DNA of 64,000 bases, taken from assembly GCA_947568835.1 (NCBI GenBank), contig OX387612.1, positions 5,456,001 to 5,520,000 on the forward strand, given 5' to 3'. The notes under the pieces were generated by a model, which worked only from the letters and a program-made list of their open reading frames with translations, was not told the origin of the DNA and did no database searches. The DNA comes from Protonemura montana (lineage: Eukaryota > Arthropoda > Insecta > Plecoptera > Nemouridae). The position numbers and the translations under genes are program-made. This document shows, one piece after another, positions 17,837-47,800 of this stretch; within the stretch, counting starts at the first letter, position 1; the number at the start of each line of letters is the position of its first letter.

Positions 17837-20800
17837 CTGGCGAGAATAGAAGACGTTGGGATTAGAAGGTGGATTACAAATGTGTGCTTCATTTTCAAAC
17901 ATTGTTTTGCAAACTAGTGCTTTACAAAAGCAAATTGAATTGTACAGTAGTGGAGCTGATTTTAAAGTTTATTTGTCCTTACTGTCCTAAGAAGACACAA
18001 TGCTTTTGGTACATTCAGGTAAGAGAGGCTCTTTCAAATTCGTAATGTCAAAATTTTGACAAGGACACTATATCTGCAAATTTCAACCTTACAATGTACC
18101 CGGATATTTTGATGAAAATTTCTAACTTAATAATAAAAATATTGAGACCAATAAAATTTAGCTGAATGTATAAAATAACGAAGTTGTAAAGGATGTCCTA
18201 AACATTTCTTCTAAATCAGTCCAACCATTTGACAAGCAAAAAGAAAAAAAAACATGCAGTTTTTTCTTCTAATATTTTCAGTACTATTGGTGGTGATTTC
18301 ACGGGATCAGCTCTAAGTGAAAGGGTGGGCAGGAACTGCACACCCTTTCTAAAAGAAACTGAATGTAGGGAAAACAAGCACTTTCAATGACAGTACACCC
18401 TTGAAACAAGAGCAGAAACCTTCAAATCACAAGAAAATTTGTATTTTTTTTTTCAAGTATTCAAATTGAGTCTGCTTCGCTCACTCCGCTCATCCAATTA
18501 ACTTTGAGGCCATATGAACTTATTTTCCCGACTACCCCAACCCTTCCCCTACCTGCCCGTGACGACTGCACTGCTCCGGAGGGTGCGGCAGCTCCAGTGA
18601 CGATGACACGTACGTTGCCCCCGGCGCGCAGCGAGAACAGTGACGGCGCAGCGCGGGTCGTTGCTGCGAGCCTGCGCAGTGCATAGCGAAGCAAAGCTCC
18701 TCGGCCATCTCGGCGCACAGCGATTGGTGGGGCCGTGATGGACCTCGCTGCAAGACAGCAAAGAACGTTCTTGTGAGTTACTGTAGTTTTAAATTGCAAA
18801 TGGACAGAGTGACACACTGTGTTGGCTGCTCCTGTCCAACAGCACCAAGGACCGGCCACCGCTTAGCCTTGTCCCTTTGACACACTGTGTTGGCTGCTCC
18901 TCTCCAACAGCACCAAGGACCGGTCACCGCATAGCCTTGTCCTTTTGACACACTGTGTTAGCTGCTCCTGTCCAACAGCACCAAGGACCGGTCACCGCTT
19001 AGCCTCGTCCCTTTGACACACTGTGTTGGCTGCTCCTGTCCAACAGCACCAAGGACCGGCCACCGCTTAGCCTTGTCCCTTTGACACACTGTTTTGGCTG
19101 CTCCTGTCCAACAGCACCAAGGACCGGCCACCGCTTAGCCTTGTCCCTTTGACACACTGTGTTGGCTGCTCCTGTCCAACAGCACCAAGGACCGGCCACC
19201 GCTTAGCCTTGTCCCTTTGACACACTGTGTTGGCTGCTCCTGTCCAACAGCACCAAGGACCGGCCACCGCTTAGCCTTGTCACTTTGACACACTGTGTTG
19301 GCTGCTCCTGTCCAACAGCACCAAAGACCGGTCAACATCCTCATCATCACCCACTTATTCACCGATGCCGTTAAACCAGTTCTACAGAGCCCGTTGTCAA
19401 AACAGTGCGTCGTTAAAAATCACAACTAAATAAAACAATTTAATTTTCTCGGCTTACCATATCATCGTCCGTTCGCCTCCTTGAGATGTAGCAAAACTCG
19501 CAGATTGCGATGAGCACAGCGACGATTAAGCCACACAACAACACCACGAAAACGCCCCCTATGTTGTCGACCCCGAGGGCGTTAGCCTTGGACTCCTTGC
19601 CCTTCTCGGTGCGCACGCACGTATCGCCCGGATTTTTCCACCACTTGTTGTATAAAAGCTGGATCTCACCCTTTTCTTGGAGCTCGAGGATCACGAGCGA
19701 GAACTTGTCTCTCCACGGAGATCCTGCAAGAAATGATTTTAGAAGGATTTAGAAGGATAATGATATGAAGCTTTAAATGATGAGCGTATGGGCGTATGAT
19801 CTTTTTACAGTTTGTCAAATAAGTAATTTAAATGCATAGTACGCTCACGCAATAGCAAAATTGTTTTGGAATCGATTTTATTTTTGTTTAGTTTAGCAGT
19901 AATAAATCAACAAAATATAAATTTGACAATCTGTCGGGTTTTGAAAAATCACTACAGAATGACATATGTCTCTGATTTGCGAAGTTATGCGCTATATAAC
20001 CGCCATTTTAATTTTGCTCCAAAGCTTTTGTTGTGACAAGATATTTTGTTTTTCGAGCTGTCAAAATAATTTTTCTACAAATTATAACAATTATTTTAAT
20101 CACTTTGCGGATTTAACATGTATTTTGAAATGCTGACACTGCAATTATAACTGGAATTTAATTCACGAGTTAGTAAAAATGCGGCAGTCTTTGGGCTTGT
20201 GTTTAATCCTGTTGGCTAGACTGAGTATAGATTCTTTGGCAAAAATTCCAAATTTAGTAAAATTTAGCAAAATAAGAGTAAAAAAACTGTAAACAAAAAT
20301 TGTGCACGCACCAGTTGAGTTCTTTGATCAATAGTTAAAAAGATCTTAACTCAAAATAAAAAAATTTATCTTTTCTGGCTTGTCCATTTGAGCTTTGCTT
20401 AAACTTTGCTTTGCTTTGCTTAACTTACCCATTGGCGTGGCTATGCCGTATCCCTTCGAGTCCAAAAGACCGCCAATCTGCGTTAGATTACAGTCCCTCT
20501 GGACGTTGTAGTCCAACATGGTGGACTCCATCAGGAACGCGTAGTTCCCTTCCAGCACCCTCTTGATGCCGTCTTCGTAGCTGGAGACAAACACCGACGG
20601 CTTCTTGTTTTCCATAAACCGCCACATCTTTTTGTAAGTCTCGATCATTGAGTCCTAGAGAAGAATTTTAATATTATAATTGTAAAACTCATGTCTGGTT
20701 TATCTTGCCGAACGGTTTAGCGTTATGGAAACACTGGTTTTTGTGGGAACACACAAGTGTAGCAACACTGCGCTGAGTCAGGTATTGGATGGGTGACCAC

Positions 20801-23800
20801 CTAACAGTTTGGCATGTAGGAAACATCGGTGGAAACATGTGGTTCTTTTATTATTGGAAAATTGTCAGGACTGCTCTAACCTTTAAAGAAGTAACTAGTA
20901 CATGTTACGAAACGTCGGGAAATTTTGTTGTCCTTAACTTAGCATTCAAAACCCATTTCAAATAGTTTTTCTGGAAACATTGGTCCTCGTGAGATCACCG
21001 AAGTCAAGCAGCACTGGGCCAGGTATTGGATGGGTGACAACCGAACGATCTGGCCAGTTGGAAACACCAGCTCGCATAAGATAGATGGATGACCATCATA
21101 TTTATGACCAGTTATGTTCAGAAAAGAGGTTAAAGAAGATTACCTTAGTACAAAAAATTCACTTTTCTGGCATTTTTAGCCTGCCCATATCTTTTTATCC
21201 AGACGTTGACCTAAAAAAAATATTTTCTTCATTTTTCGCCCAAGAAAACCAACTTACCCTGAAAAACGTCATCGTAGATCCACTATCAAGAGTCCCGTAC
21301 GAAATCTCAGTCTGTCCCGCCAAATCCTCGGCGTTCTCGATGGGCGTTATCATTCGTTCGACTGTCAGGAACGCCGCCAGGTTCGCAGTGTACGACGAGA
21401 TGATGATCAAAGTGAAGAACCACCAGATGCCGCCGACGATGCGCGTGGACGTGGCCTGGCGGTTACGGGTTCGGTTATTGGGTTTAAAAGGTTAGGTATA
21501 TGGTTAAGACTAGCCACTAGTTTTAGTTCCCGCAACACAGAGGGGCGTGCGCAAGGGTGAACGCTCTATTGTTTGAACGCTCTACTCATAAGCTCGAAAT
21601 AAAAGGTCTTAAAAATCAATTTTCAAAAATGTAATATTTTTGTAATATATTTTTTTTTGTGAAAGAACTTTTTTTTTTCTGGTGGGGCAAAGGTCATCTT
21701 AACCCCCCGATCTTTCTCTCCTGCTGTGAGGCCTCACGCCATCCTGATCCTTAAGGAGATTTTCAAAAATTTGTAAATATTACCTCTCTACTAAAAAGAC
21801 CCCGTTCCTGTTATAGGGCCAGATGCACTGTCAAATACATTCGGCAATTTAGGCAGGTTTGGTTAGGTTAACTTGGTTAGGGAACTACGTCACTAAGGTT
21901 AAATGGCAGACATCAGCGGAGATGATTTTTAGTGTATTTAAAAATGACAGTTGGCTCAAATACCAGCCCAAAACCACAGTTGGCGCCTCCGTCGGAAAGG
22001 TTCGGTAGGTCGCTAGACGTTGTTTAGGAGGGCGTAAAACGGGTATTGTGGATTAAGAGAAGGGTATTTTGAAATGTAAATTTATTGGAAAAAAACTAGC
22101 CGAGTGTGAAATTATGCGGAACAAATTTGGTATCACAACTTTTAACACCGGAAATTCACGGTCGCTAACGACGAAATATTTTATGAGGACTATTTTACTA
22201 CCAAAAGTAGCTCTGACCTAAAATAAGCACCAACTAAAGATTAAAAGCTTTTATCATAACAAAGTGGAAAATTGATCAGACATTGTTTGAAGCTAAAGTA
22301 CAAAAGCTCGTGCGGTTTTAAAAGGCAGTGGCATTAGACGAAAGTTCCTGGAAAGACAGAGGTGCTTATTTTAGGTGAGAGAGGAGATAAACATCAACAG
22401 AAACATGCAGACATGGTACATAAAGATGGAGAAAAGTCCTATTAAAATGTACTGGAAAGATAAACGCAGGAAAAGAGTATGATGGGAGGAAGATGGCATT
22501 TGAATGGAAAAAGATAAAGTTATCTAACAGAACTAGCCATGCTAGAAGTTGAAGAGATTGTGCAAAAAGAAATCTCAAGAAAAAAAAACTGTGATTTTTA
22601 AGATTATATCTACTTTTTGGTAATTCACCGTTATATTTGGTGCTTATTTTAAGAATGTTTGAAGAAGGGTTTATTTTGAAAATCAAATGAGTGTACGACA
22701 TCGCTTATTTTCAAAAGCAACCGTCAACTCAAGAACATAAAGAGTAATTATTGTAGCACCACTGTCGATAGTACGAATCAAAGTGTACTTTTTGTAGCTA
22801 CAACCATTGGGTTCACATATTTAGTCAGAGTCCCAGCGCTAATGATAAACGTCCTGCCATTGGCTTTACAGGTTTGGTCAGAGTCACAGCGCTAATGTTT
22901 AAGCTACTAAGCAAACGAGCCGGTGACGTTTGGTAACGGTAACTGCCACCCGATGGCGTTTACGGCCGCCTTTTTCAAGACATGTCAACATTTGACATGA
23001 AATGAACGTCAATAATTTTTTTTATATTAAAAAATTTACGATCTTAATGCGAGCTATCTGAGATAAGTAATTTAATTATTATTATTATTTTTATTTTCTA
23101 AAAAAAAATAGCGATTTCACCAAGTAGCAACTTCCATATCATGTCAATTGTAGTTGGTCGTTTGATATTTACTTCGTTTACTATTAGCGCCGAGGCTCTG
23201 ATTAAAGATATAATATGAAAAAAATCATCCCAATTTCAGTTTTTAGACTCATGTCTACTTCTTCTAGCCTTAGCACTAGTTTTAACAAAAACTATTTAAA
23301 CTGGGGTTTGAATGCTAAGTCAAGAACAACTAAATTTCCCAACGTTTCGCAACTTGTACCTGTTACTTTATCAAGGGTTAAATCAGTCCAGACAATTTTC
23401 CAATAACAAAAGCCATTGGAAAAAAGTTATCGGAAAATTTTCAGGACTGCTTTTACCCTTGATAAAGTAACAGGTACAAGTTACGAAACGTTAGGAAATT
23501 CAGTTGTTCTTCACTTAGGATTCCAAACCCAATTTAAAAAGTTTTTGTCAAACCCCTATTACAGTTTCAACGTTCTGATCTCAACATTGGTGCCAAATAA
23601 AACCCTTCTCCCAGCTACCTTTGGATTCAAATCCGAGCCTTGCTGCATGAGCGTCCCAATGGCAAACCAGAAACTGTTTGCCAACGAGAACTGGTTTTCG
23701 CTCATCTGGTTGTCGATCTCGCACGGGTGTGGATTGTGCCACTCGTAAGGCGAGAACCGGGCGACAACGAACATCGTAATCGAGACGAGGAAGTAGGCGG

Positions 23801-26800
23801 CGAACACAGAAAGCCAGATCTCCACGGATAACGGGTTCATGAAGGAGAATAGACGAGTAGGCGCACTGGTAGGCACCTTTTTTGGGGCAAGTTAAAAAGA
23901 ATTCGGTGGGATTAGCTGGTGTTACTTTTGTTTATGTTTTAATGATGAACTGTGGTAATGTTGACCGATCAACTGGCGAGGAAAAATATGAAGTACCGAC
24001 CGAAGGCTTACATTTTTACAAAAACTAAATACCATAGAAAATACCATAGAAAGACCATAGAATGTGGGTAGATCTTGTCGGTTGCCTTGTCCATTTGCTT
24101 GAAATTCTGTACTGCAAAGAAGCGGACACATCACTGTCGTTCTTGTACCACTTGGGCTTCACAAATGCAATTTGAGTTTTGTTTTAGATGAGGATGCTTT
24201 CTATTATCCTTTATTTCTTTATTTTTCTTCGGAAAAAGGTATCCCCAAAGTGTTTTTTAATACTTTCAGTTACAAAAAGGGCTCTTTACAATGAGAACTG
24301 TAAGCATTATTCCTTGGAAACTATACCTGCGAATCGGAACTTAACTTTTTTTTTGTTGTTGTTATAAATCTTGATTTAAAACAAACCCGTAAAACTGATT
24401 AATTATTGAGCAAATTATGTTGTTATGCTTAATAAAATAACTCCCTGAAACCAATTACAAAAAAGTCTTTGCATTTTGAGAATGTGGTCGCTTCTTTGCA
24501 GACGAAAATAAGCAAAAAGTCGAGGTTTTTTTCACTCCCGGCACCTGTGGATTGACGCCCGTCCCTTGCTTGAGCAGCGTCCCTGTGATGAACCAGACGC
24601 TATCAGACACCGACATGTTAAGGTCGTCGTCTTGAAAACGACGCCGACGTCGACGTCGACGCTCATAAGGTGAGATGAGTGCTAGGAGGTAGAGCATGCT
24701 GCCGGCGCCGACAAAGGCGGCGACAACCAGAAGACGCAGGTCGAAGCCGAGAGGGTCGAGGAAGGTGAAGAAGGTAGACATTTTGTCTGTGGGTACCTGT
24801 TTGGTAATATTTTGTTGTAAATTCAAATATAAATAGAGATAATTCATATTATCTTTGCACATTACACAATTTCGCATGTGGTAAAATAAAGTGTGTAACG
24901 AACGGTTTAGCGTTTTGGAAACACCGGTACTCTGAAGTTAAGCAACACTGCGCTGGGTCAGGTATTGGATGGATGACCGCCATACACATGACCAGTTCTG
25001 TTTGGGAGAGAGGCTGGAGAGATGAAAGTTAGTACAGCGGCAACCTTCTGAAAAATGTGCGACGGAGACCTATTGAGTTGTACCGTCCTTCGGAAGGGTT
25101 GTTAAGCCGTTATGTCTTTTGGTGCTCTCCGGCAGGAGTACGCTACGTGACGACACCACGGGTTTCCTATTTTTCGTCAATGGGTAGGTTTAGTTCATCA
25201 ATATCACCATAATCACTCACTCATTCACTGAGGCCATTAAACCAGTACAACCAGCTGTAAAAACAATGCGTCGCTAAACACAACAAACCATTATTAACAT
25301 CGTTGGTGACTGCATTTACGACGCTAATAGTTCGGTAGCTAAAAATAAGTGCGATTTTTTCATATTAATACCAAAAAAAAATTATTTTGGCAGATACATA
25401 TTGAAAATAGCACGTTCAAAATATATATATTGTATATTAATTACAAAGTTATGCTCCTTAATTGCCGTTTTATAAACTGACGATCGACACAGATGATCAT
25501 TTGTACGCAACAATATCGATTTTCTCCTATAATGATGGAACGTAACATAATATGCTCAGATATTTCTCGAATGCACACATATTCGCGTTCCTCGTTAATT
25601 AAACTGCTTGTAAAGCGTGATCGTATTTAATATCAAGAAGTTGGTAAGTTATGGAGTATCTTGGAAGAGAAATAGGAAATGATTAATCCTGCACAGAGAT
25701 TAAAGCATCCTTAATGAACAGCTATAGCGATCAAGTTTAGCACCCCTCTCACCGTTAACCTCGATCGTGATGAGGTTATAATTTGATAATAACTTGTTGG
25801 ATTCAGCTCCAGTCAGAGTCAATTTGCCAATCAGATATGTGTTTTTTTTGTCTCCGGTCATGGGTCACGTGGAAAATCTTAGTGGCAGTGCAATTTTAAA
25901 AGTCCTTGGAGTTCCGTCTAATGACAGAGTAAGTCATCAAGGAAAAGTTCCAGAAAATGATCATAAAATAGATGAATTTTAATTTAGTTCTGTGGCGAAC
26001 GACATTATGAAACAATGGAACAATCCAGGCTCTCAACCAAGTAAGTGTAACTAGTTATAGTTATTTCTACAAGTGAATTCACAGCTCTTGTCATAGGACA
26101 TAATCACAAGCGTAGGTATTTTTCGGAAAATAACTAGCAGTCATCGAACTTCTGAAGTAAGTCTGTCATACCTTATAATCCTTAGCCCTTGAGCTTATGT
26201 GTCTCAAAACGTTATCTTATATTCCCTTCATGTCACCTAGACATAAGGTAGGCACTTTAATTCATTTTACAGTTATCCTAAAATCGTGAAAACAAGCTGA
26301 TTCATATTAAAGGAAACATACTTGTGATCTTCATATCGGTTTCGCAGAGAGACAAAAATAAGAAAATCCATAAAAAATGCATACCATGTTCCAATTTTTC
26401 GCAGGCGGAAACCGCATGAACCCATGGCATACTCAACTAATGCCACCACCCATTCAAGGAGCACCCTCCGGGTACCACTGTTCCTGTCCACAGTTACGGC
26501 CAAACATGAACGGTAACAAGATAAAGGGACCTCTAGTTTATTGGACTATTTTTTTAAAAGTTCAAAGCAGGATTGCTCAATAAAAATCGATAAAAATAAC
26601 TATTGTCTACCATTTTTAGCAGAGCTTTTTTTTTAAGTGCACGTGTTCATTTAGCGTGTGGTTTTCTTTCCAGTTTATTTGCAGGATCAAAGAAGAGTAT
26701 CAATGCCAACCCATCCTGGGATCCAGTCCCATGTGCATCATCAACAAAATATCAGGATGACGATGACGCACCAGCAAAGACTGTACCAGCAACCGCTCGA

Positions 26801-29800
26801 GCATGGCCAGTCGGTCTATCAGCAAGGACGTATCGGACATGGTAATTAAAAACAATAAATCGTATTTTTATGAGATACAATTAATGAATTGGTGAGCTGA
26901 AAAAGTTATTAAGGTGGTTTTATAATGCATTTTTATGGATTATTAGATACGTTTGACTCCGATTATATATTCTATTCACATCTAAGAAAACTTTTTTCTT
27001 TCTAGGATCATAGTACTTTTTGTCGCCAAGCCCTGCTATGTAAACAAAAAAATATTTCCAAACTGTTTTTCAGAATGCAGAAATGTCCACTACTCAACAC
27101 ATCCGCCTACACCTCAATACTCAATGCCACCCCCCTACCACCAGCACCAGCACCAATACCCGATGGGACAACAAGGAATGATGCTACCTCTTCAACCACA
27201 ATTCCACCAGCCACCAGCTAACATATACTCCTTGCCGATTCAGCCCCCATCGTTCCATTGTCAGGCAGGTGGTTTCTCCCGACACCCTCCAATACACCAT
27301 TCGATGGTAACACCGAACTGTTACAGCACATTTTCTGGAACGTACAGTCAGCGTAGAGGACCTCAACAACCACAAGTTTCCAGCACAGCAGAGGAACACC
27401 ATTTTCGTCATGCTCTCAGTGTGAACCATGGGAAAAACATGGTGAAATCGCCATCGGCAAAGGTACAGAATGTCAGACACGTAAGTGATATGAAGCAAAG
27501 CCGGGGTTTGGGAGTGGACAATGCGGGTGATTCGGTGTCGAAGGGATTTTCTTCGGCCAAGAAGAATTCAAGGACAGTGAAAGAGGCTGGGTTGTCATGT
27601 AGTAGTGCGGTGGTAAGCACGTCAACGGATGAATCTGCAAAAGTGACCGACTTGTGTCAGAGTGAGGTTGTGATTGGTGACGAGAGTGGTGCGAATTGTG
27701 TGGCGAATTTGGAGGCTGGTTTTGTGGTTGATGGCAGTTCTGGTGGAGCAAGAGAGGCTTTGACAAAGTCTAGCGTGACCGGGAAGGTGGTCGAGATTAC
27801 GGAAGTATGTGGAATTGGTGATGAAAGTCGAGTGAAGAAAGAAAAAAGATTGTCTGCGGATGATGACGAAGATGCATGTGACAGTGTCGTTTTCAATTTA
27901 GATCACAAAAAGAAGAAGTCGGAAAAAAGGGCAATCGTCGATGATTTTAGCACAAAACAGAACCCTTTTCTGAAAGCTAGCTGCCAGAAGAGTCTGGGAG
28001 TGATTTTTGAGACTGAAACTGACAGAGAAGTCGATATGCTTGGTACAGGAAGCGAAACAAGTTCAGAGAAAAGCTCTTCGCAGCTGGGAAAATTAAAGGT
28101 GATGTCGATTCTCGAAAAAGTGGCTGAAGAATTGAAAATCAACGACGACATTCTCAACTACAGACGCGTCGAGATTACCGCGGAGAAGACGCGAGTGTCT
28201 CGGGCAGTAAGTCGTGAGCCTCGTCTCAAAGAGATCCGAAACAAGTGGAACATTGCCGACAAATTCGGTAATCGTAAGTCGCGGGGAAACTCAAGACGAA
28301 ATTCGCACAGACGTGCAGCCAGCGACGATTCGGAAACAATTCCTCCACTCACTTTGATACCTTCGCAATGTCTTACAGGTAAGTGTAAGGCTGAATTAGT
28401 CTTGGGAAATGGGACTTCTTCCAAAACAGTGGCAGTAGCCGAGAGGAGACCATCTACAGAAAGAGGCTACGAGTATGACATCAACATTGACGACATGGTC
28501 AACAACATTTGCCACAGTTCCACGCCGTCTTTCACATCAAGTGACGATGGTCACTCCCCGGAAAAAGTCGACCAAGAGGTCTTGGAGTGCGGAAACGAAC
28601 ATTTTTTGATAAAAGCATTCGAAGAAGATGAACATTACTCGACGATTAAGGGTTACAGTGACGATGTGCGTAGCGGGTTTCTTGTAAAAGAGCACTCATG
28701 TTCATCGAGCGAGTTTGCGGTGACTGGTGGTGATGGATATGATGTTGGTGTTGAGAGCATTCGAGTGGCGTTTAAAAATCTGAGTGCAAGCATCACGGCC
28801 ATCAAGGAAAGACTCGAAGGAGATGGTAGTGAACCTCAGAAGCTAATCATGGAGACAGAAGCAAGCTTTCTTAAGTTTCAGAAAAGTTATTTGAAGGCAA
28901 AGACTGCTTTTCAGGAAGATATTTTTAAATATCCTTCCGATATTCATTATGATGAATTAACATGTGATAATGTGAGTAGCTTTTTCGGTCACCTTGTACA
29001 CGGAGACTATGAGATTATTATCGATTATAAAAACGGTCTTAGGCAAGATACTAAAACGCATCAAAAAAATACAGGATACAATTTTACATCAAATAGTTTC
29101 GAAGAATTCACCGACACTTCACTTACTCATGAATCAAATTTGAATATTGATGGAATATCTTACGATCAAGATTCTTTGTTGAACTACAATTATTTTGGTC
29201 AATTTAACATAAACAATCTAACGTCTCGTTTTGAGAGTCGGTCGCTTTTTGGGGTCACTCTAGGAACAATGCAGTATTTAAACAACAACGAGCAAAGATT
29301 TTCGGCGAATCAAATACCACACGAGAACAACAACCAGTTTCATCCACATCAACAATTCAGCAGTCACCCTTCAGTAGCTTCTGAAAAAAATCTCCAAGAC
29401 TTACTCGAAGACATCGATCCGAACACGATAGACTTCAACACTAGCGACATGAGAGACGACACGATATCAGCAAGTTCTTGTGAGAGTGCGATTAGGGTTA
29501 GAACTGAAGTTAAACAATCAAAAAAACTGTTGAAAGGGAACACTTTAAAACCAGCAAAAGTTATTCCATGCAATGAAGACGAGGAAAATGAGAATGTACC
29601 TAGGAATTATTTGAGACCAGGAGTTTATCCTGGAACGCCTGAGTTGATATCAGAATCTTTTGACGAACCTAAAGAAGATGCTCAAGGCACGCTTGGTCGC
29701 TTAGAGACTAGCAAAGCTGGTTTTAAAGAGAAATGCACAGTAAAAAAGAAACCTTTTGATAGAGGGAGCTATTTACAACCTGGGATCAAACAAAAATCTC

Positions 29801-32800
29801 TTGTTGAAATCATGAAAAACTCTGGAGGCGTCGACAAAAGCGTCCCGTTTAGCATAAAACAGCTGGAGATACGACATTTGGAAGCTTCTCGAACCAAGAA
29901 CGAAGATGAAAGTATTAAAACGACAGAAAAGTCTTCCAAAAAGTGTGAAAATTGGTTATCTGAGAGTTTGAAACCAGCAAACGAACGAAAACGAATTCCG
30001 TCGTTATTTGAAGTCAAGGTCAGCGGAGTGTTCAATACGAAATCAAAGGCAGACAAAAGAAAGCAAAGCAATAGCTCGTACGGATCAGGTGATGCTCCTT
30101 GTCTTCTGAGAAGGAACGTTTCCACCAGCAGGAATGGGTCGCGTCCTGGAAGCAAGAAGCTTACGAGGCGGCACAAGGCAGCGTCAAGGGGACAGACGCG
30201 ACGAAAAGAAGATAGTGCTAAGGAAGTGGTGAAGGAGCAGGTAGTATCGCCTGGCCAACAATGGTGGGCAATCGCCCCTGGTATGTATAGAAACGTCAAC
30301 ACGGAGAAATTAGAGAGTGTGGGGCTAGGTAGTGACGTTTTGGATTCTGTCAATGAAGTTGAAGAAGGCATGAGGGTTATTAATCGCCACAAAGAGACTC
30401 CTCCACCTTTGAGTAAGATTTTAGCAATTGCTCGTAAGAGTAATGAAGGGAATATTGTTTAAATGTTCTAGTTTCACGTTTAGAGAAACTGTTTTAATCG
30501 TATGGTTATGGAATAAATTAATTCAAATATGGTACGACCTGGAAATGTGGCCAGGGTTATGCTATCAATTGCAACTCTGATTATTGATTATAGTTTGTTG
30601 AAATTTAAATGATGTAATAATGTTTATGTCACTTTTCAATTCAATAAATTATTAGTTGTGAATTTCAATTATATGTTTTAGTCATGTGGTTGTTAAACTA
30701 CATTTTATTGTCCGAAAATAATAATATATACACACATTGAATAGTGGCAATGATAAAAACTGTAAAAAGGTGAATAAATATCTCAATTTAATTTCGCCAA
30801 AGCACAAGCACAATTGCTTGCTAATCAATCAATGTCATTTTATTCGGAATGGACGAACTGAATCAACGTGAAATTGAGCGAAGAGCGGTCTGATATCCTA
30901 ATCAAATATGTCTCAACAATAACGTTAACATTTATCATCCTGCCAGTTGGTATAAATTGGTTGGGTAACATTGATGTTTCTATCGTACAGGTAAAGGTCA
31001 GAGATCTTTATTCAAGTTATCAAACCCTTGAGGTGAGACGTAACAGCGCAGTCTGGCAAATTTCCTGTTTCATATCAATTATGGATATATACAGTGTTGC
31101 ACAACCGTGGTTGTGGGTGCTGTTACCGATCGGCTTAGCACCTTTCAAAATTAAGGGGCGAATAGGGTCGAGAGAAATAAAACGGTCAAAATTTGGAATG
31201 TTATGTAGCATTGTTCTGATTATTTTCTTCGTCTATCTTGGAATTGAAGAAACAAAAGCATATACGCTTCGCAGCCCGGATATTGTCCTATACGTGTATT
31301 ATTTTCAAACTGCGGTCAATATTTTGCGAGTGACCTTTTTTGCGTGTTCTAATTTTCGTGTTGGATTGAATTTTCTGAATATTTTGAAAGTTTTACAAGC
31401 GATGGACTCTACGTTTCAAAACGAAGGGATCAAAATTCGTTACGTACGAACTAGGAAACTTTCTTTGATTCAAATTTCTATTTGCTTCTTAATGACTTTG
31501 TACAGAATTTCATTGACTGCCTTCCGAATTCTTGTCACCTACAAAGGGAAGTTTATACATTCCTTAATCATATCTTACATTATATCACTTTATCATCACG
31601 TGGTATCAGCAATCATTTTATTTCTTTATTGTGGCTGGTTGTCTTTAATGCAACAAAGATTTAAAATTATAAACACACATATCGAAGGGGTTTTAACAGC
31701 AAATGCAGGCAAAATTGTTGAAAATGGCAAAGTCATAAGACGGATAAAATTAGTTGGCCCACGGCGTTTTCTAACAATAAGAAAATTAGCAGAATTTCAT
31801 GACTCATTAAACGACATGTCGAATCATGTGAACGACATGTTTGGTACTCAAATGCTTCTGTTTTTTGCTTCTACTATCACTATAGTAATCTCGACGATTT
31901 CTTACTATTTCGTGACGGGGAGTGGTATAGTCGGACACAAGGCAATGGAAACTTTTGTTGGACTTTCTGTGTTGCTGGAGCTCACGATTCAACTGATTGG
32001 CGTTGTGTTTGTATCCGTTTCAACTTCACACGAGGTAAGTTTAGCTATAAATTCAGAAAAAAAAAAACATTGAAAGAAGTAAAATTATTCAGTTTTTACC
32101 TAGTTGATAAATTGTTAAAAATTGGTAAAAAATTGTAAAAAAAATCCGTCCAAAATGTAAAAACGATGTAACTATGCGTAGTAAAACATTTAACTTTATG
32201 TAATCAAACCCACAAATGAGCCTTTAAGTATTTGTGGAAAAAAAAAAACATAAAAAATGTGATCCTTATTTACCGAAAAAAAATATATAGAAATATACAA
32301 GATTTTAGCCGGTGCTTACGACATCCCCAACAAAGTGAAAATAGCGTAAAAATTTGCTCAAAACCTGACACATTGCTGTGCTGCGTTTTCTGAACGATCA
32401 ACGAATATCATGTAAAATGAATGTTTTCCAAGCAGTCCAATGTACTAGGTGCTAGAGGTTGAAAAACGTCTCTGTGTTATTCTTATGGGCCATGTTTTTC
32501 CAAGCAGTCCAATGTACTAGGTGCTAGTGGTTGAAAAATGTCTCTGTGTTATTCTTATGGGCCATGTTTTTCCAAGCAGTCCAATGTACTAGGTGCTAGT
32601 GGTTGAATAATGTCTCTGTGTTATTCTTAAGGGCCATGTTTTTCCAAGAAGTCCAAAGTACTAGGTGCTAGGGGTTGAAAAATGTCTCTGTGTTATTCTT
32701 ATGGGCCATGTTTTTCCAAGAAGTCCAATGTACTAGGTGCTAGTGGTTGAAAAATGTCTCTGTGTTATTCTTATTGGCCATGTTTTTCCAAGCAGTCCAA

Positions 32801-35800
32801 TGTACTAGGTGCTAGTGGTTGAAAAATGTCTCTGTGTTATTCTTAAGGGCCATGTTTTTCCAAGCAGTCCAATGTACTAGGTGCTAGTGATTGAAAAATG
32901 TCTCTGTGTTATTCTTATGGGCCATGTTTTTCCAAGAAGTCCAATGTACTAGGTGCTAGTGGTTGAAAAATGTCTCTGTGTTATTCTTATTGGCCATGTT
33001 TTTCCAAGCAGTCCAATGTTCTAGGTGCTAGGGGTTGAAAAATGTCTGTCTTTTCTTATGGGCCATGTTTTTTCTCAGCACTAAAGCTATAAAAAGATCA
33101 ATTTTCATCGTTCTTGCTAGTAACTGTGGCAACACAGACATTTTTTAATTAATCACTAAATTTCTAGCTCAGAAACATTAATGAGGGATGAATTTTAATT
33201 GTCATAGGTTAATTCTTGTTTAATGTAGAAGTGGAAAAATAACTTTAATGATAACTGAATTATTTTACTGAAAATCCTAATATTTATCAGTAACAATTAA
33301 TAGAATGTATAAGATTAGTTTGCTTTGGCAAAAGACAGTTTTCGATTGTGCGGTTATGTAGGATTGTGTGGGTTAAATTATGTAACAGTTAACTTTTAGA
33401 AAGTAAATTTTTATAATTCAATCCCCCGGTCATATCGCAAGTAACCATCAAACAATTAAGCACCGCATTTATCTGTCAGTTCGTAACAGAAACACAATAC
33501 CAATTGCTAAACTATTCGGTAAATAACCAATCGATTGTACCAAATTCGGCTGAAGCAATTAATATTTACTGAGGTAGAAAGCGACATGTCTGGAATAATG
33601 GAATTTATATTCGATTGAGGTTTCCATTAAGAAACTTGCTAATTTATAGATATTATTTCTTTGTTATGGCTTACACTGCTAGCCGGGGGTTTTTCATAGC
33701 ATCAACCTTGACTGAGATATTTAAGCGGTCAGTCTTTCAAATCTCCGTTCCATTTCACTATGGACATATACAGTGTAGCACAGCCGTGGTTACGGGTACT
33801 TCGACCTATTGGTTTAGCGCCTTTCAAAATTAAAGGGTCCGTAGGGTCAAGAGAAGTAAAATGGTCAAAATTCGGAGTCTTTTCTTGTATTACTTTCTTA
33901 AGCTTATTGTTATATTTAGAATTTGAAGAAGCAAAATCGTACGATTTTAACAATTTCGATGTCGTCAGACAAGTTCATGTTTTTCAAACTGCACTTAATG
34001 TTTTTCGATTGGCTCAGTTTGCATTTTGTAACTTGTATAATGGGAAAGAATGTCTTAATATTTTAAAGTTATTGCATAAAATGGATACTTCATTTCATAG
34101 TAATGGTAAACTAATTAACTACTTTCGTGCGAGGAACTATTCTTTGGTTCAAATTTTTGTGTGTTTTCTAGCGTTAACTTTTAGAACTTTGCTGACAACT
34201 TATCGAATTTTTGTTACCTTCAAGGAAAGAAGTATTACACATTCCTTTGTAATATCGTATTCCCTTACAATTGTGTACCATGCTTTATCTCCGATTATAA
34301 TTCTCCACTACATTGGCTGGCTTTCATTGATGCAACAGAGATTTAAACTGATTAACGTTTGTATAATGGATTTCATCCCCGACTTAACGGGAACTGAAAA
34401 TAGAAAAACTGTTCAAAAAAACAAAAACTTCATCTGTAAGCGAGGTTTACTGAAAATCAGAAAACTGGCAGAGTTTCACGATATCTTACGTGACTTGTCA
34501 AGATTTGTAAATGACATCTTCGGAAAGCATTTGATTTTGTTTTCTGTTTCGACTATCACTATTGCTTTGTCTACAATATCGTATTATTTTGTGAGTACCA
34601 ATAGAAATTTTGGCGACATGAAGGTTCTGGAGACTTTTGTCGGAATCTGGGTGTTGTTCGAAGTCTTGTTGCAAATGACTGGCGCTGTTTATATCTCAGT
34701 TTCCACTTCTCAAGAGGTAAGTTTTTCTGTAATTTTGTTGATATATTAGGGCAGTGTTACCCTAACCTTCAACATCTCTGTACCCCTTCTATAATTTTCA
34801 TGACACAAAATAACCCTCGCCAAAAAAACGCAGATAGGTCGTTTTATGACGAAAAAATGTAAACCTTAAAAATTGTAAGCAAATAAACTGAGTACGTCTA
34901 GAACGAAAAAACTAATTTTTTAGGTTTTGTATCGCACTGTTCGTGTGCAGCAGAAGACTAAACATGAACCATTGGAAGGCTGAGAAAATTTGGTTAGTTT
35001 TAGGTGAAAAAAAATGCATGATATTCAATTCATGTGGTTGCCCATGCTTAAAATTAAAAAAAAATATATATTTTTGAAATGTGTCCAGTAGTTTTGTAAA
35101 GCTCTCCAGAAAAGTGCATGGGGATACTCGTACCATAATTTGGGAAACACTGCATTAAAGAGATGAGCTGAGGGAACAAAATGCACTCCTGAGTTTTTTA
35201 ATATATTAATAAAAATGTATGAAATTGTCATCGAAAAACTGCACAATTCAGATTGCAGGTGGTAAGGCACTATTGAAAGAATAAACAATTTTAAATTTTA
35301 GTCTAACCGTCGCCATTAGACCAGTGCCACACTGCCCGTCGTGAATACAGTGCGTCGTTGAACCGCAGTAGTCAAGCAATTATTCTTAAAAGGGAGACGT
35401 TAAACGTTACAAAATTACAGGCTTAAGAATGAATCATCAACTATGAAGTCTTTATTGACTGACACTTGACAGCAATAATTTAAATGTTAACTAAGTTGAT
35501 GGTCAGTCAGTGTCACAACTTTACAATTACATCAAATCCTAATCGTCAAATCATCAATACATCAAATCGCTGACAAAAACTATTTCAACTGGGTTTTGAA
35601 TGCTGAGAGAAGAACAACTAAATTTCCCAACGTTTCGTAACTTGTACCTGTTACTTTATCAGAGGTAATAGGTACAAGGTAACGAAACGTTGTGAAATTT
35701 AGTTTTTCTTCACTTTGCATTAAAAACCCAGTTGAAATAGTTTTTGTCAAAACTAGTGCCAAGATTAGATAAAGTGGACATGAGTCTAAAAACATCAAAC

Positions 35801-38800: not shown

Positions 38801-41800
38801 TGAGACAACGCAACTGTTAAGACTGTAGACTTCCATTTCAAGTGTTTGTAGAAACACCTCGCGCTTAACTCTCGCTTGAGCTAGAAATTGTGAAAGTAAA
38901 ACAACCAAACTGTGTTTCGAACTCTCTTTAAAAACAAATATATGTCCTCAGTCACAGTGTTTGTCATTTCGTAAAATTTTATAAATAATAATCATCTTCA
39001 ATTTTTTCAATGCAATTTTTTCTGTCTATCTTCTCCTGTAAAATACATTCAATATTGGAAAAACTATCTTTATTCTAGTTTAAAATTAAATTTAATATCA
39101 ATTATCGATTTTTGTAATATTACTGAAACAAATGGAAATAGAATGTTCTAATGATACTGAATCTTGAATTAAAGATTCTTTGGCATGCTTTTTTTGTAAA
39201 TTATTTAAAAATAACAGCTCTCTTTTCAACAGCTCTGTTTTTTTAAATACCCTAGCTCATATACTTAACGCTGCCCGCTCATTTAAATATCTTCTTTTTT
39301 AAACTCTAAATTTTTTCTTAATCTTTGCTGATTTTAACGAAGATAGTCCATTGTTCTAGATGGTCGCTGGTATCACTACTTACATGGTTGTCCTCATCCA
39401 GTTTCAACTACTTGCTGTGACTTCTGACTAGAGACACAACACTGCTAAGCTGTCGCCATTTTGTTCAGTGGAGAGAACGGTAAGCAAAGTTTGCATTTAA
39501 TATTAAACCGTCAACTCCAATCAACATACTCGATCACTGATCTCAAATAACATGAACATTTTATTATAAGAAACACTTCTTTCTTCTTAAAAATACTAAT
39601 ACAAAAAAATCCCGCGAATTACAAGCGTTTGCAATTTAAATCAGATTTCACGAAAAATGGATATTGGTTGCAATGGCGAAACTTTGAAGGCCAGACCACC
39701 ATTTTGGGAATACCCGTGTTTGAGCTTTCTCAGAGGGATCAGCTGGCTGGATCCTATGCTCTATCCAGGTTATTTGAGATCAGCTGGCTGGATCCTATGC
39801 TCTATCCAGGCTATTTGAGATCAGCTGGCTGGATCCTATGCTCTATCCAGGTTATTTGAGATCAGCTGGCTGGATCCTATGCTCTATCCAGGTTATTTGA
39901 GATCAGCTGGCTGGATGCTATGCTCTATCCAGGTTATTTGATATCAGTAGGCTGGATCCTATGCTCTATCCAGGTTAATTGAGATCAGCTGGCTGGATCC
40001 TATGCTCTATCCAGGTTAATTGAGATTATTTGATTATTATGAGGTAATTTGGATTGGATGTCCTTCTTCGATAAAATATATAATGTGATGTGGTATTATA
40101 ATTTTTTTGTATTTTCCGAGCTATTATGGCTATATCTTTTTTGTAGTGAAGGAACCAATTAAGTTTTGCGGGCTGCATTCAGGGAAAATATTTAAAAAAA
40201 TTTTTAACTTATTTTAACTAGGAGAATAAATAAGAAGAATATCATTTGTAATGAGCTTTAAGAATGAGTGTTTTCTAAAGATGTTGACGAACTATCGTTA
40301 ATTTAGTGGAGGTGCCTAGTTTGCTCTGCGGGCTGCGTCCAGGAGATAGTCTGTAAGGCTTAGCTAAAATAAAAATAAATCAATTTACAAGAAATAAATC
40401 AGGAAAAATATTTCAAATAATTAACCAGACATTTTCTGAAATTTTTAAAGGAGTTAAGTTGATCTTTAATGAAAAAGACCCTCTACATCATAAAAAATTA
40501 CCTTAAGACCGGTTTTTCAGCGGTACGCCAAAAAAAAAGTATGTTAATTTTGTTATTTGCTTATCATTAGCCATTCTAATCGCTTTTATTCGTTAACAGT
40601 CTGTTAGGTTTTAACGTGCCATTGAAAATCGGCACTTAGTGAGAGAAGGTAGTCTTTGGAGCAAAGGAACTCAACGAGGTAAATTGAGTAAATTCTTTCC
40701 TAAATTGAGTAAATGATTAAAAACCTATTTGATACAGAGCGAACTAATGTCGAATTAATACCAGTTTAAAAGAAATCGGCAGTTTTTTTGGTAAATATGA
40801 TAAATCCTTTAGTGGTCTCATCATCTGTAGCCATTTTAATGACCATTCATTCGCCAATATTTTATAATCTTCACTGATAGATCTCTAATAAATGCATATT
40901 TTATATTTCGTGACATTTAATATCTTTGTTGTTGGCTTACCTTGAACAGAATACTGATGCCGAGGTTCATGAAGGGCTTGGTGAAGTCGATGACGCTTTC
41001 CCGCGCGTAGTTGATGGTCATCGACCCCACGGCTAGGTCCGCTTTCTGTTGAGAGAAACACGAACTTTTTAAAGCTTGCTAGTGACACAAGTTACCGTTA
41101 GATGTCGCCTCGGCGAGTTAAAAATAGTCGGGTAATATTTAAATGTATTCGTAACGGAATCTTTGAATAAGTACATGCGATTGAATTATTTGTCTAAATT
41201 ATTCAGGAACTTAAAACATAACATTAAAACTTAGAAACTTACAACAATTAAGTATATCACCATTTAAGCAATCTGTAATTCAATTTTATATTTCACGAAA
41301 TTAAAAAAATTCCGTACTAGATTTTGAAATACGGAAATGTTGCTAACTGCAAAAAACACTGTAAAAAGCATAATTGATACTAAAGATATTATAGTTAATT
41401 CTAGCAATAAACAAAACAAGTATTTATCATAAACAATCAATCGTATCAATAACCATCTCAGCGGAAACGGCGAGTGTCTATCATTTGCGTGGAGCGAAAC
41501 AAGCACCCTGTCACGGAATGTCCAGCACAGAGGCGACGGCGAATGTCCAGCACAGAGGCGACGGCGAATATCCGCTTCTTTTGCGTGGAGCGAAACAAGC
41601 ACCCTGTCACGGAATGTACAGAACAGAGGCGACGGCGAGTGTCCGCTCCTTTGCGTGGAGCGAAACAAGCACCCTGTCACGGAATGACCAGCACAGAGGC
41701 GACGGCGAGTGTCCACTCCTTTGCGTGGAGCGAAACAAGCACCCTGTCACGGAATGTCCAGCACAGAGGTGACGGCGAGTGTCCGCTCCTTTGCGTGGAG

Positions 41801-44800
41801 CGAAACAAGCACCCTGTCACGGAATGTCCAGCACAGAGGCGACGGCGAGTGTCCGCTCCTTTGCGTGGAGCGAAACAAGCACCCTGTCACGGAATGCCTA
41901 GCACAGAGGCGACGGCGAGTGTCCGCTCCTTTGCGTGGAGCGAAACAAGTACCCTGTCACGGAATGTCCAGCACAGAGGCGACGGCGAGTGTCCGCTCCT
42001 TTGCGTGGAGTGAAACAAGCACCCTGTCACGGAATGTCCAGCACAGAGGCGACGGCGAGTGTCCGCTCCTTTGCGTGGAGTGAAACAAGCACCCTGTCAC
42101 GGAATGTCCAGCACAGAGGCGACATCGAGTTTCACTCCTGTTTTCTTAAACTAAATCATGTGGTACTTACAAATTAAACATAGGGATATAAAATTGTATG
42201 ATTTTTTTTACCTTATCGATGAGCTGTCTTACGATTCCGTTCCATTCGCCGGTCTCCGGGTCGAGGACTCCGTACTTTCCGTCAGGTACCAGCTCTATTC
42301 GGTAGTCGAAGCCGACAATCTCTGAGATACGTCTTAAGAGGTCGATGCAGAATCCTTCGTACCTTTCGTTGCCGGTGGCATTGGCCATGTTGCGCATCAT
42401 CACGTAGGGAAACTCCTTGAGGAAGGGAGCAAAGCAGGGTGTTCTGTACATGGCTTGGGGTCTTGTTACGTTTCAGTGAACGCAGGTTTAAGTGCTTTGT
42501 TATATGTCTTTAGACATATCTAAAAAGTAAAATGTTTTAAATTGTTTATCGAAATATTTTAAAGTAATAATCGGTTTCTGAAATATTTGTTAACATTTCG
42601 TTTACAATTTTTTATCTTTTAAATATTAGAATTCATATAATTAATGTATTTTTATAATAATTATATTTCATTACCTTTTTTTATTTTATTGACATCTGAA
42701 TTCACCAATGTCAAGGTAAAGACAGATACCAAATTCATTTTGACTGTTTAATATCGATATTTTGTTAGGTTTAAGAGAAAATATTCACGATTTCTAAAAT
42801 ATTTTGAACTTCCCAGTGTTGGTAAACCCGAGTGATAAAAATTTGAATGGAAAATTACAATAATAAATAACATTATCGTTGAAACTTTGCCAGTTGATTC
42901 AGTGCACTCGGCGTGAAAATATTGTATCATTTAATTATTTTTAGTAATTGCTAACGATTATTGCTAAGCATTTTTACGTTAAAGTATTTTTTTTTGTGGT
43001 GGAGGAGCCAAGTTTACATTGCATTGAGGGTTGCGTCCAGGAGCAAAACCAGATTTAAGTACAAACCGTCAACTCTTCACAAATAAAAATGCACGAATAC
43101 AAATTTCGACACTTTCAAGGTACTTTTAAGTCAAAATAGTATTAATAATTTGCTAATGCAAGTTAAATTTTTCTGTTACTAACTAATTTTTTTTTTGTGA
43201 ACATTCCCCGTTTTTGTTCAAATATTTGAATCGGATCTGAAAGAAACGTTTTTTGATTGAGCTACGGAATGTATTAATGATCAGCCAATCACAGACGCTG
43301 TGGTTGTCACCATGGTGATACAAACTTAACGCCCACAATAGAAGGGTTATGTTTTAATTCTGCAAGCCTGTACATTCTTGCTTGCTGGACTCTAGCTTGG
43401 ACTCCTAGTTGAAATTCGCGATTTTATGTTAAAACTTTCTTTGCGTTTTATTATCCCTAGCCTTGGGTTGTCTGTCAACTTACATAGCCTACTCATAACA
43501 GCTGGTAGTCAATTTATTATCAGGATCAACCAGGATCAAACCAGGATCAACAACAAACAACAAGAAACAACAAGAAACCCTGTGGAGAAATACCAGTCAT
43601 CTTCAGGATGACAATATTTAAACTTATTCTAAAGTTTCTGTCATCCTTGTCAATGTTTTAGATAAAAAAGTGTCTGTATTATGAAGTTAATAACAAAATA
43701 TTCACTTGATATTCAAACACAAAACAGTTTAAAAAACAAATATAGGACAATCTAAGGTCAAGGTCACTCATATAACAACAAATACAAACATTTTGTAAAG
43801 TCCAGTATTACAATGTTTTTCAACTCTCATTCCTAACTCTTATAGACGGCTGAATTTCACTGCCTATATTTGGTTGTTGCCATGACAATTGACTTAACTC
43901 TCACTTTAACTATGAGTTAAGAAAATTGTAATGCTGGAGCTAAACAACACTAATAGTGAATGACAGTGCTGTTCACTTTGCTTATATTATTGCTGGATTG
44001 ACGATAGGAGATATTTTAGCAGAAAACTCTATAATACCAAGCTGTTACCGAAAAACCAAAATAACATTCAAACCTTGATATTCTTATTACAAAACTAACC
44101 ATTTTAACCACAAAAATCAGGTGAAATGTCAGTTAAAAAAAAAATGTAAGAGTTGGTAATTAAAAAAAGTGCTATGTGACAAGATAAAAATCGATGCTAC
44201 GACGGATATGGGGCATGTTAATACTAAAATTAGGTTAAGTGATACTCCTACCTTGAAAAAAACGAAGAGCGTGATTTGGTTTATATATATATTTTTAAAT
44301 AGATTGCAAGAAAAAGCTGTCGTGGCAGTCAGACCAAGATGCTAGGAGGGGAGAAAAAAAATTTGATAACCTGAATTGAGACGTTTCAGGTGATTCTCAT
44401 AATGAGGAAACTTGCTGATATAAAAAATATATTATAATCATATTCGAATTGACTAAGGTGGCACAAGAACGGACAAAAACGAAGTAAAATTACAGAAAAA
44501 AAAATCAAACATGGCTTTTGATGAAAAATGAAATCCGGATCCTAAACATGGTTGTGGAATGATTGAAAGTAGGTGGGTTGAAAAATGTATTGGATCCGAA
44601 CAGTTCAGAGCGTGAGAGAAGATACCAGCACAAGGACTGTCTCCAGCATTGCTACAGTCTAGCCCGTGAGAGAAGATACCAGCACAAGAACTGTCCCCTG
44701 CATTGCTACAGTCTAGCCCGTGAGAGAAGATACCAGCACAAGGACTGTCCCCTGCATTGCTACAGTCTAGCCCGTGAGAGAAGATACCAACACAAGGACT

Positions 44801-47800
44801 GTCCCCTGCATTGCTACAGTCCAGCCCGTGAGAGTAGATACCAGCACAAGGACTGTCCCCTGCATTGCTACAGTCTAGCCCGTGAGAGAAGATACCAGCA
44901 CAAGGACTGTCCCCTGCATTGCTACAGTCTAGCCCGTGAGAGTAGATACCAGCACAAGGACTGTCCCCTGCATTGCTACAGTCTAGCCCGTGAGAGAAGA
45001 TACCAACACAAGGACTGTCCCCTGCATTGCTACAGTCCAGCCCGTGAGAGTAGATACCAGCACAAGGACTGTCCCCTGCATTGCTACAGTCTAGCCCGTG
45101 AGAGAAGATACCAGCACAAGGACTGTCCCCTGCATTGCTACAGTCTAGCCCGTGAGAGTAGATACCAGCACAAGGACTGTCCCCTGCATTGCTACAGTCT
45201 AGCCCGTGAGAGAAGATACCAACACAAGGACTGTCCCCTGCATTGCTACAGTCCAGCCCGTGAGAGTAGATACCAGCACAAGGACTGTCCCCTGCATTGC
45301 TACAGTCTAGCCCGTGAGAGAAGATACCAGCACAAGGACTGTCCCCTGCATTGCTACAGTCTAGCCCGTGAGAGAAGATACCAGCACAAGGACTGTCCCC
45401 TGCATTGCTACAGTCTAGCCCGTGAGAGAAGATACCAGTGCAAAGACTGATTACTGGTATACTGATCAACGCATAATTGGAATCTATGTATATATTTTTT
45501 TAGTGGCGAGATTTTGAAATACTTATTTTGTTTGCAAAATAATTCTCAAGATAGTAATAATTGCCAAGATGCCAAAAGGAACCCATTAAAAACTAGTTTT
45601 TTACCAAATTTCAAGACAACGTATGTGACCTAGTAGCTACAATTTCGGAAAAAAATACAGCTTTGTGCCGGACCAAATCTTTTGTCTGCAAAACTTTTGC
45701 TTCTTATTATTTTTACCTGATAAATATAGCCATTATATCTCTGAAATGTTCGGTATGTTTTCCGACATGTTTACTCTCATTTTGAGACTTATGTTACTGA
45801 GAATCTCAAAAAATCTGGATAGAGCATAGGATCCAGCCAGCTGATCTCAAATAACCAGGATAGAGCATATGATCCAGCCAGCTGATCTCAAATAACCTGG
45901 ATAAAGCATAGGATCCAGCCAGCTGATCTCAAATAACCTGTATAGAGCATAGGATCCAGCTAGCTGATCTCAAATAACCTGGGTAGAGCATAGGATCCAG
46001 CCAGCTGATCTCAAATAACCTGGATAAAACATAGGATCCAGCCAGCTGATCTCAAATAATCTGGATAAAACATAGGATCCAGCCTGATGGCAAAAACTTA
46101 AGTCAGACAATCCATTGTTGGCCTTGGGCTGTAAAAAATACGAGTGAAATCAACATAAAAAAAGCGGATACTTTCTTTTAAATGGGGAACAGGGAAAAGG
46201 TGCCTGTCAACCACATACATGCGTTAAGAGTTGTGAAACCATCCCGTTCCACTCTCCCGTGTCAGGGTCTGCCGCTCCGTACTTCATGTCGGGTACCAGC
46301 ACCAAAATGTAGTCGAAGCCCAGTTTTTGGGACAGACGCTCGAGGGCGTCCACACAGAACCCGTAGAAACGTGCGTTTCCGGTGTAATTATTGCTGTTGT
46401 GCATCATAACGTATGGCACTTCCTGCGCATGCATTAGCTAGCGTCAGCACTGGCACATGCCTGGTTAGGGCTTCAGATCGGCAAGCAGTGGGTAAGGGAC
46501 GTTAAGTCTATATCGTTTGAATTTTTGGTTTAGTCAGAGTTCCAGTGTTTATGGTAAATTTTCTGCCATTGGGTTTATAGATTAAGTCCGAGTCCTAAGG
46601 CTATGTTTAAAAATCCTGCAATTGGGTGTATATAGGTCAAATCTGAGTCCATGCCCTTATTTTAAACATCCTTTTTTAGATTTTAAGGTTAAGTCAGAGT
46701 CACAGTGCCAATTTTCAACTTTAAGTCATTGAGTTTTTTGTTTTAGTCAAAGTCCCAGCGCTAATACTAAACGTCCTGCTTTTGCTTTAAAAGGTTAAGT
46801 CACATCATCGCTTAATTTTAACGTAGTACTTTAAATGGTAAACGCCTTTGAGAAATTTTTTAACTTTTTAACTTTATTTCTATGAGAAGTAATAAACAAA
46901 AGTCGAAATGGGGAATGGATCTGAAGCCCTAAATGAAAATGAATAGGCTGACTAAATTATCCTTATTATAGCTTCAGGTACAAATTATTTTTGCATGCCT
47001 AACAAGACTTTTCATGAAAATGTTATAAAGCGTAAAGCTGCAAGTCTGTTTCAAAATTAACAATGATAAGTAAAGAAGTGATGAGTTTTTATACATGCAA
47101 AGTGGTTATCAATAAATACTTTGGTCGGATGCTGGCTATTGGATGTTTATCAGGAGTTTTTGCTGTTGTAAGTTGACTAAATAAACTAACAGACAATTAC
47201 ACGAAAATTAGAACTGTCCTTTTTGGGACAGATCTAAAAAATATAGTTTCTTTTAATTAAGTTGTCTCAGGTTCAATCCTTGTGGACGGCTAGCCTGATA
47301 GTAAGAGCGTCATGCATGCCTCGCATTTGGGAGGTCCCAGGTTCGATAACGGTGACCGGTTTTCTTGGTAATATTTGTATCACGTCTAGCTTGCATTTTC
47401 AAGATTTCAGGTTTGATCCTGGGAACCGACCTCAATAAACTGATAAACTTTGCAATTTCGACTGTCGGTCCTAAGTTTCATTTTTGACCAAGAAGTTTTT
47501 AGTTTAAATTTTTACTTGACTTTTCTCACAGTTCACTCTTTTTATGATCAAAGAGTTGCATGATTACCAATTGAAAGGCAACAAAATTGTTTCTTTAAGA
47601 ATAACTTATTTGTAAGAGTCTCGACAATAGGCTTACCAGTATGGTGACCACGACTAGGGTGACATTCAGCGATCCCGTATCGAAGAAGGCCCCTCGGTCA
47701 GTGACGTTTACCCCTCCTCCAGGTGACCACTCCCCAACTTTGACTAGTGCGTGTTGCTTCAGTTTCAGCAGGTCCAGTTTGAACCGGATTCGACGACCTT

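Follow-up and report, generated by a model that had tools for sequence, protein, structure and literature searches.

RNA recoding has its textbook case in the Q/R site of the glutamate receptor pore, and the locus described here raises the question of whether one receptor gene can supply both forms of the pore directly from the genome by a choice between two exons. The window, by which we mean the whole stretch of 64 000 nucleotides that was analysed (G000:C15:5456001–5520000), was examined together with searches of its genome (258 Mb in 34 contigs). We put at roughly 0.6 the probability that mutually exclusive exons in this window switch the receptor between a Ca-permeable pore and one whose low Ca permeability is hard-coded.

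The minus strand of the window carries a kainate-type glutamate receptor gene. For the amino-terminal domain one 3′ exon was modelled (open frame 47978–47598). It is followed on the same strand by two copies of the S1 ligand-binding exon, 6A (46219..46422) and the canonical 6B (42212..42415), which agree in length and phase, and by exon 7 (40941..41045, phase 0), which ends S1 with the residues ...GISILFK and joins to either of two pore exons. These are 8b (24545..24796), which spans the pre-M1 segment, M1, the M1–M2 loop and the pore loop, and the canonical 8a (23619..23876). Exon 9 (21258..21455, phase 0) contains M3 with the gating motif SYTANLAAF and the start of S2, exon 10 (20429..20654) continues S2, and exon 11 (19473..19723, 3′ end approximate) supplies the end of S2 and M4; exons 6B, 7, 9, 10 and 11 together provide S1, the gating motif, S2 and M4. 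The assignment to the kainate rather than the AMPA class comes from 8a, for which the best PDB match is GluK2 (111.3 bits) and the best AMPA subunit scores 82.3 bits. With the kainate class defined as closer to kainate than to AMPA subunits, 8a shows membership and 8b alone does not show it: the best 60 of the 149 PDB matches to 8b bear AMPA and not kainate subunit names, so this exon by itself no longer carries a kainate signature.

The intron between exons 7 and 8b holds open frames on the plus strand (30862–32073, 33712–34749 and 36667–37752). The first and the last match the chemosensory receptor family 7tm_7 in Pfam, and by eye the middle one is similar to the first. The same intron contains a plus-strand open frame of 1158 codons (26986–30462), for which a Pfam search gave no match.

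Exon 8b (24796–24545, minus strand) is intact, translating from VPTDKM through 84 codons without a stop, and is flanked by aaacag before and gtgccg after the exon, giving AG/GT ends. It measures 252 nt compared with 258 nt (86 codons) for 8a; both exons are in phase 0 at both ends, as are exons 7 and 9, so that either is compatible with its neighbours. The Q/R-site codon of 8b is AAG (Lys; 24569–24571, minus strand) and its +4 codon is GGC (Gly; 24557–24559, minus strand), whereas 8a has CAG (Gln; 23643–23645) and GAT (Asp; 23631–23633) at these positions. The initial annotation had described a second pore exon with the phase, the ends and nearly the length of 8a, a genomic Lys at the Q/R site and Gly in place of the +4 Asp, and all of these observations hold. 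The likeness needs one qualification: the ends and lengths match, yet the sequences have diverged strongly and 8b has a run of arginines, two features that the initial annotation of this exon leaves out and that give room for a non-conducting subunit. The two exons are identical at 27 of 84 residues (tblastn E 3e-12); Pfam Lig_chan recognizes 8b alone with 34.5 bits (cut-off 30.8), and its PDB matches are glutamate receptors (best E 1e-9). The run consists of eight consecutive Arg codons (CGT/CGA/CGG; 24661–24638, minus strand) in the M1–M2 loop, which the topology of the family places at the mouth of the pore on the cytoplasmic side. With eight basic and four acidic residues this loop has a net charge of +4, compared with −4, −4 and −6 in the other three pore exons (8a and the paralogous pair described below), and the hydropathy of M1 is maintained (mean 1.98, versus 1.62 to 1.82 in the others). 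The extra positive charge might impede cations still more, draw anions in or cause ER retention of the subunit.

The features listed in PMC3228551 for mutually exclusive exons are a length within 20 amino acids, compatibility of splice sites and frame, and homology. The window exons have 84 and 86 codons and the paralogous pair 86 and 92, splice sites and phases are compatible in all four, and the alignment of 8b with 8a given above establishes their homology. According to the same source, of 16 180 exons on the Drosophila X chromosome that are annotated as non-exclusive, 90 have such features, so that the prior for mutual exclusion is good. Both exons are multiples of three, so the reading frame does not enforce exclusion. 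The exon anatomy, the paralogous pair and the constraint on 8b are results of the analysis; that 8b is used in RNA, that one exon excludes the other and that permeation is affected, we infer.

Two candidate signals of regulated splicing were considered and set aside. The predicted pairing of the 5′ splice sites to U1 is weak in 8b and 8a (−6.8 and −6.2 kcal/mol, respectively) relative to exons 7, 9 and 10 (−9.5 to −10.0 kcal/mol), which fits regulation but is no proof of it, as the constitutive exons 6 and 7 of the paralog are equally weak (−6.4 and −6.6 kcal/mol). An inverted repeat in the 8b–8a intron (arms 24112–24131 and 24482–24501; 20 nt, 90% complementary) has an 11-nt core that is present in only two copies in the window, one per strand. 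It was not retained as an exclusion device because one of its arms fits a 70-bp minisatellite at 41.6–42.1 kb.

The minisatellite forms an array at about 41480–42140 of the window and recurs in the paralog upstream of the Arg exon (L018, about 9010–9620). A separate tandem array at about 8900–9850 of the window has many copies of a unit with TATTTGAGATCAGCTGGCTGGATCC. Elsewhere in the genome, exact (TCAGG)4 was found 92 times forward and 89 times in reverse, compared with 0 and 1 for the reversed control; many of the listed occurrences are near contig ends, and telomeres of TCAGG point to a beetle-like genome.

A genome search with 8b gave nine matches at E up to 1, of which the best non-self match (C15:5767712–5767969) lies on the same contig, on the opposite strand and about 287 kb away. 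It belongs to a paralogous gene with an S1 exon (L018:2244–2447, phase 0), an exon 7 (L018:8765–8869, phase 0), two pore exons (L018:9713–9970, 86 codons, and L019:4456–4731, 92 codons; both phase 0) and an exon 9 (L019:8849–9046). The first pore exon, the paralogous 8b, reads WFITGTFLRQGSGLNPK, with Arg (CGG) at the Q/R site and Gly (GGG) at +4; the second, the paralogous 8a, has Gln (CAA) and Asp (GAT). All four pore exons of the two genes have AG/GT ends and phase 0 on both sides, and the genes share the order, the frame and the chemistry of the pair, with the basic/Gly exon upstream and the Gln/Asp exon downstream. Judged from its sequence, the Arg exon looks sound in every respect, and its Pfam score (66.8 bits) is like those of the Gln exons (68.8 and 66.7 bits). 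The residues before the Q/R site are WFITGT in both basic exons and WFAIGT in both Gln exons. Over their full length, the paralogous 8b is identical to the window 8b at 33 of 84 residues and to the window 8a at 60 of 86; within the pore segment the figures are close (13/20 and 14/20, respectively). With this second pair (Arg/Gly and Gln/Asp) and the rejection of neutrality reported below, the earlier proposal that 8b is a genuine alternative exon is now better supported.

The consequences for permeation proposed in the initial annotation, low Ca permeability and little polyamine block with splicing doing the work of editing, are predictions that draw on published physiology. PMC6307864 states that Ca permeability and polyamine block are determined by the Q/R site and by the acidic +4 residue; PMC12580572 and PMC8257547 report that Arg at the Q/R site abolishes the Ca permeability of kainate and AMPA receptors, and PMC12226733 that an Asn-to-Lys change at the equivalent site of NMDA2A severely diminishes Ca permeation. 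We propose that 8b and 8a are tandem-duplicated alternative exons for the segment from M1 to the pore loop, most likely mutually exclusive. Splicing of 7–8a–9 would give a subunit of the standard kind, in which Gln occupies the Q/R site and Asp the +4 position, expected to be Ca-permeable and polyamine-blocked; splicing of 7–8b–9 would give one in which the genome fixes a basic residue at the Q/R site and the +4 residue is a neutral Gly. By analogy with the receptors cited, the latter, if it conducts, should pass little Ca and show little polyamine block, and Ca permeability, conductance and polyamine block should be lowered whether it acts alone or is mixed into tetramers.

The chief rival accepts the splicing and disputes the conduction. 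Having lost the conserved loop (PYEW...) and gained eight arginines, the 8b subunit might conduct poorly and instead adjust the number of receptors, either through its retention in the ER or through a dominant-negative effect. In some receptors ER retention is promoted by Arg-rich motifs and by Arg at the Q/R site, and the reversed charge of the 8b loop (+4 versus −4, −4 and −6) and the strong divergence of the exon would suit such a role. We nevertheless think it rather unlikely: M1 has kept its hydropathy, purifying selection on 8b is indicated (see below), and the basic exon of the paralog has an ordinary loop. Because that loop is ordinary, the property common to the basic exons is the pair of pore residues, and a conducting low-Ca pore is the reading that we prefer.

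The ancestry of the pair was addressed with FastTree on nine sequences and with a pore-segment tree on twelve. The two 8b exons are joined in both (SH-like support 0.914 and 0.991, respectively), as are the two 8a exons (0.742 and 0.664), and the branch of the window 8b is long (1.51 substitutions per site, versus about 0 for the paralogous 8b). Among six topologies compared by likelihood, the best pairs 8b with 8b and 8a with 8a. The worst is the strict within-gene topology (delta lnL 7.1; KH 0.0375, SH 0.0475, AU 0.0105), which bears directly on the alternative of convergence, with a separate duplication in each gene and an independent change to Lys in one basic exon and to Arg in the other. 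The AU values carry a program warning of too few replicates. In favour of convergence, the changes from CAG to AAG and from CAG to CGG each take one base, the paralogous 8b is closest overall to the window 8a (60/86), and two topologies with the window 8b outside the other three exons survive the tests (AU 0.224 and 0.185). For the other two topologies AU is 0.048 and SH 0.086. Set against this are the poor fit of the within-gene topology and the ITGT motif and Gly common to both basic exons, and we regard convergence as doubtful. A single old duplication fits best and separate within-gene duplications fit worse, so far as these alignments go, and the basic/Gly exon, with either Arg or Lys, probably predates the split of the window gene and its paralog on C15. 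The greater nearness of the paralogous 8b to the window 8a is attributed to rapid change of the window 8b; exchange between exons might also explain it.

The long branch raises the further possibility that an alternative exon which remains functional in the paralog alone is decaying in the window gene, with 8b as its relic, and the weak 5′ splice site, the low Pfam score (34.5 bits) and the repeat-like look of the Arg run would agree with this. The exon has, however, neither stop nor frameshift, its splice sites are intact and it has kept the basic residue and the Gly. Between the two 8b exons, 40, 23 and 55 of 84 codons differ at positions 1, 2 and 3, respectively, with the fewest differences at position 2, and GC3 of 8b is high (0.64, versus GC of 0.35 to 0.37 in the surrounding introns). 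A codon model with a branch-specific omega on 8b rejected omega = 1 (LRT 10.04), and a second implementation did so on each of the four topologies tested of the six (LRT 9.93, 5.49, 5.32 and 4.58; 5% point 3.84). The fitted omega of the branch (0.024 to 0.043) is not a usable rate and is meaningless in itself, because synonymous sites are saturated and the length of one branch reached its bound. In simulations of neutral decay to the divergence seen in 8b (three starting exons and two base compositions, 3000 runs each), 1.7, 6.1, 1.3, 5.2, 0.9 and 4.0% of the runs remained free of stops. Purifying selection on 8b is indicated by these tests, which give no date for the last constraint, and decay appears unlikely; as an account of the locus, a relic is less probable than either of the alternatives above. 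A chance open frame or pseudoexon is likewise unlikely, and is graded no lower because synonymous sites are saturated. That 8b is an assembly artefact or part of another gene is very improbable, for although the adjacent large intron contains opposite-strand genes, 8b sits on the same strand as exons 7 and 8a and between them, its phases match theirs, it differs from 8a far more than a haplotype copy would, and the exon order is identical in the paralog.

The pair is one of several duplications in these receptors. A genome search with 8a gave at least 15 matches at E up to 0.01, read at the level of exons, and two further kainate-class genes, on contig C2, were found to have duplicated exons that cover M2 alone. 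In one of them (L023:5769–5906 and 5951–6088, plus strand) both exons are 138 nt long and have Gln at the Q/R site; in the other (L024:4676–4539 and 3280–3143, minus strand) the first has Gly (GGT) and the second Gln. The exon boundaries on C2 differ from those on C15, and for this reason the C2 duplication was probably a separate one. The two M2 exons of L023 are only 44 nt apart, and as an intron of that length may be too short to splice, exclusion may be enforced there. A fifth kainate-class gene (L022, C2:6836345) has a single pore exon, so that paired pore exons were found in four of the five kainate-class genes examined, and three of the four pairs differ at the Q/R site.

Within the window gene, the S1 exon is duplicated too. 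Copies 6A and 6B are 204 nt each, in phase 0 and 62% identical over 66 residues; both are recognized by Pfam Lig_chan-Glu_bd (76.9 and 86.2 bits, cut-off 30), and they differ at 20, 16 and 37 of 68 codons at positions 1, 2 and 3, respectively. When the paralog was searched for a second S1 exon (tblastn of 6B over L018–L020, about 29.5 kb), a threshold of E up to 0.1 gave one S1 exon; widening it to E up to 1 added a single weak hit (E 0.93, 23 residues, other strand), which was taken as chance. On sequence grounds the duplicated S1 exon is a possible second splicing switch in the window gene. More broadly, exon choice may have replaced or joined RNA editing as the pore switch in these receptors: two separate duplications (of the M1–M2 exon on C15 and of the M2 exon on C2), each common to two paralogs, would account for four kainate-class genes with three pairs that differ at the Q/R site (Lys/Gln, Arg/Gln and Gly/Gln), and in the window gene the S1 and pore switches could let splicing tune the response to agonist and the permeation separately. 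We advance this generalization tentatively, at somewhat less than even odds.

Mutually exclusive exons are well known, and so is the Q/R site; the combination seen here is a kainate gene, and a paralog of it, in which a pore exon with a genomic basic residue accompanies one with Gln. A literature search at the level of titles and the starts of abstracts, covering few subscription journals, found no account of this combination, nor of any alternative pore exons in the kainate receptors of insects, which is weak evidence that none has been published. If our reading is true, a gene that reaches both pore states through exon choice would let the reason for using editing at all be tested in nature, and would reveal which of two properties, the charge at the Q/R site or that at +4, selection keeps as the remaining sequence of the exon drifts. 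Isoforms that differ in Ca permeability may also be missing from those models of insect glutamate receptors that contain one pore exon.

A close functional parallel is Q/R editing of vertebrate GluA2, GluK1 and GluK2, in which, as described in PMC8257547 and PMC12580572, A-to-I editing at the same pore position replaces Gln by a basic residue in a fraction of the subunits and lowers Ca permeability. Here, by contrast, the genome itself supplies the basic codon (AAG in the window gene and CGG in its paralog), which belongs to an exon of its own within the gene and is accompanied by Gly at +4 and by other changes. A close parallel in gene structure is the AMPA flip/flop pair, which PMC8257547 presents, like the window pair, as tandem homologous exons with one chosen per transcript. 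Flip/flop lies in late S2 and affects gating rather than the pore, and its skipping or doubling breaks the frame, unlike that of the window exons. The insect nAChR alpha6 gene, according to PMC1919356, is likewise a ligand-gated channel gene with duplicated alternative exons, and it has editing sites that are genomic G in other species; it belongs to an unrelated channel family and other positions are involved. Genomic residues other than Gln at the Q/R site are also on record among other iGluRs: PMC6307864 reports Gln in only about one third of 122 iGluRs from newly described groups, and PMC12226733 a Ser in a placozoan epsilon receptor. In those receptors the residue is fixed for each gene, whereas the window gene holds both forms in two exons.
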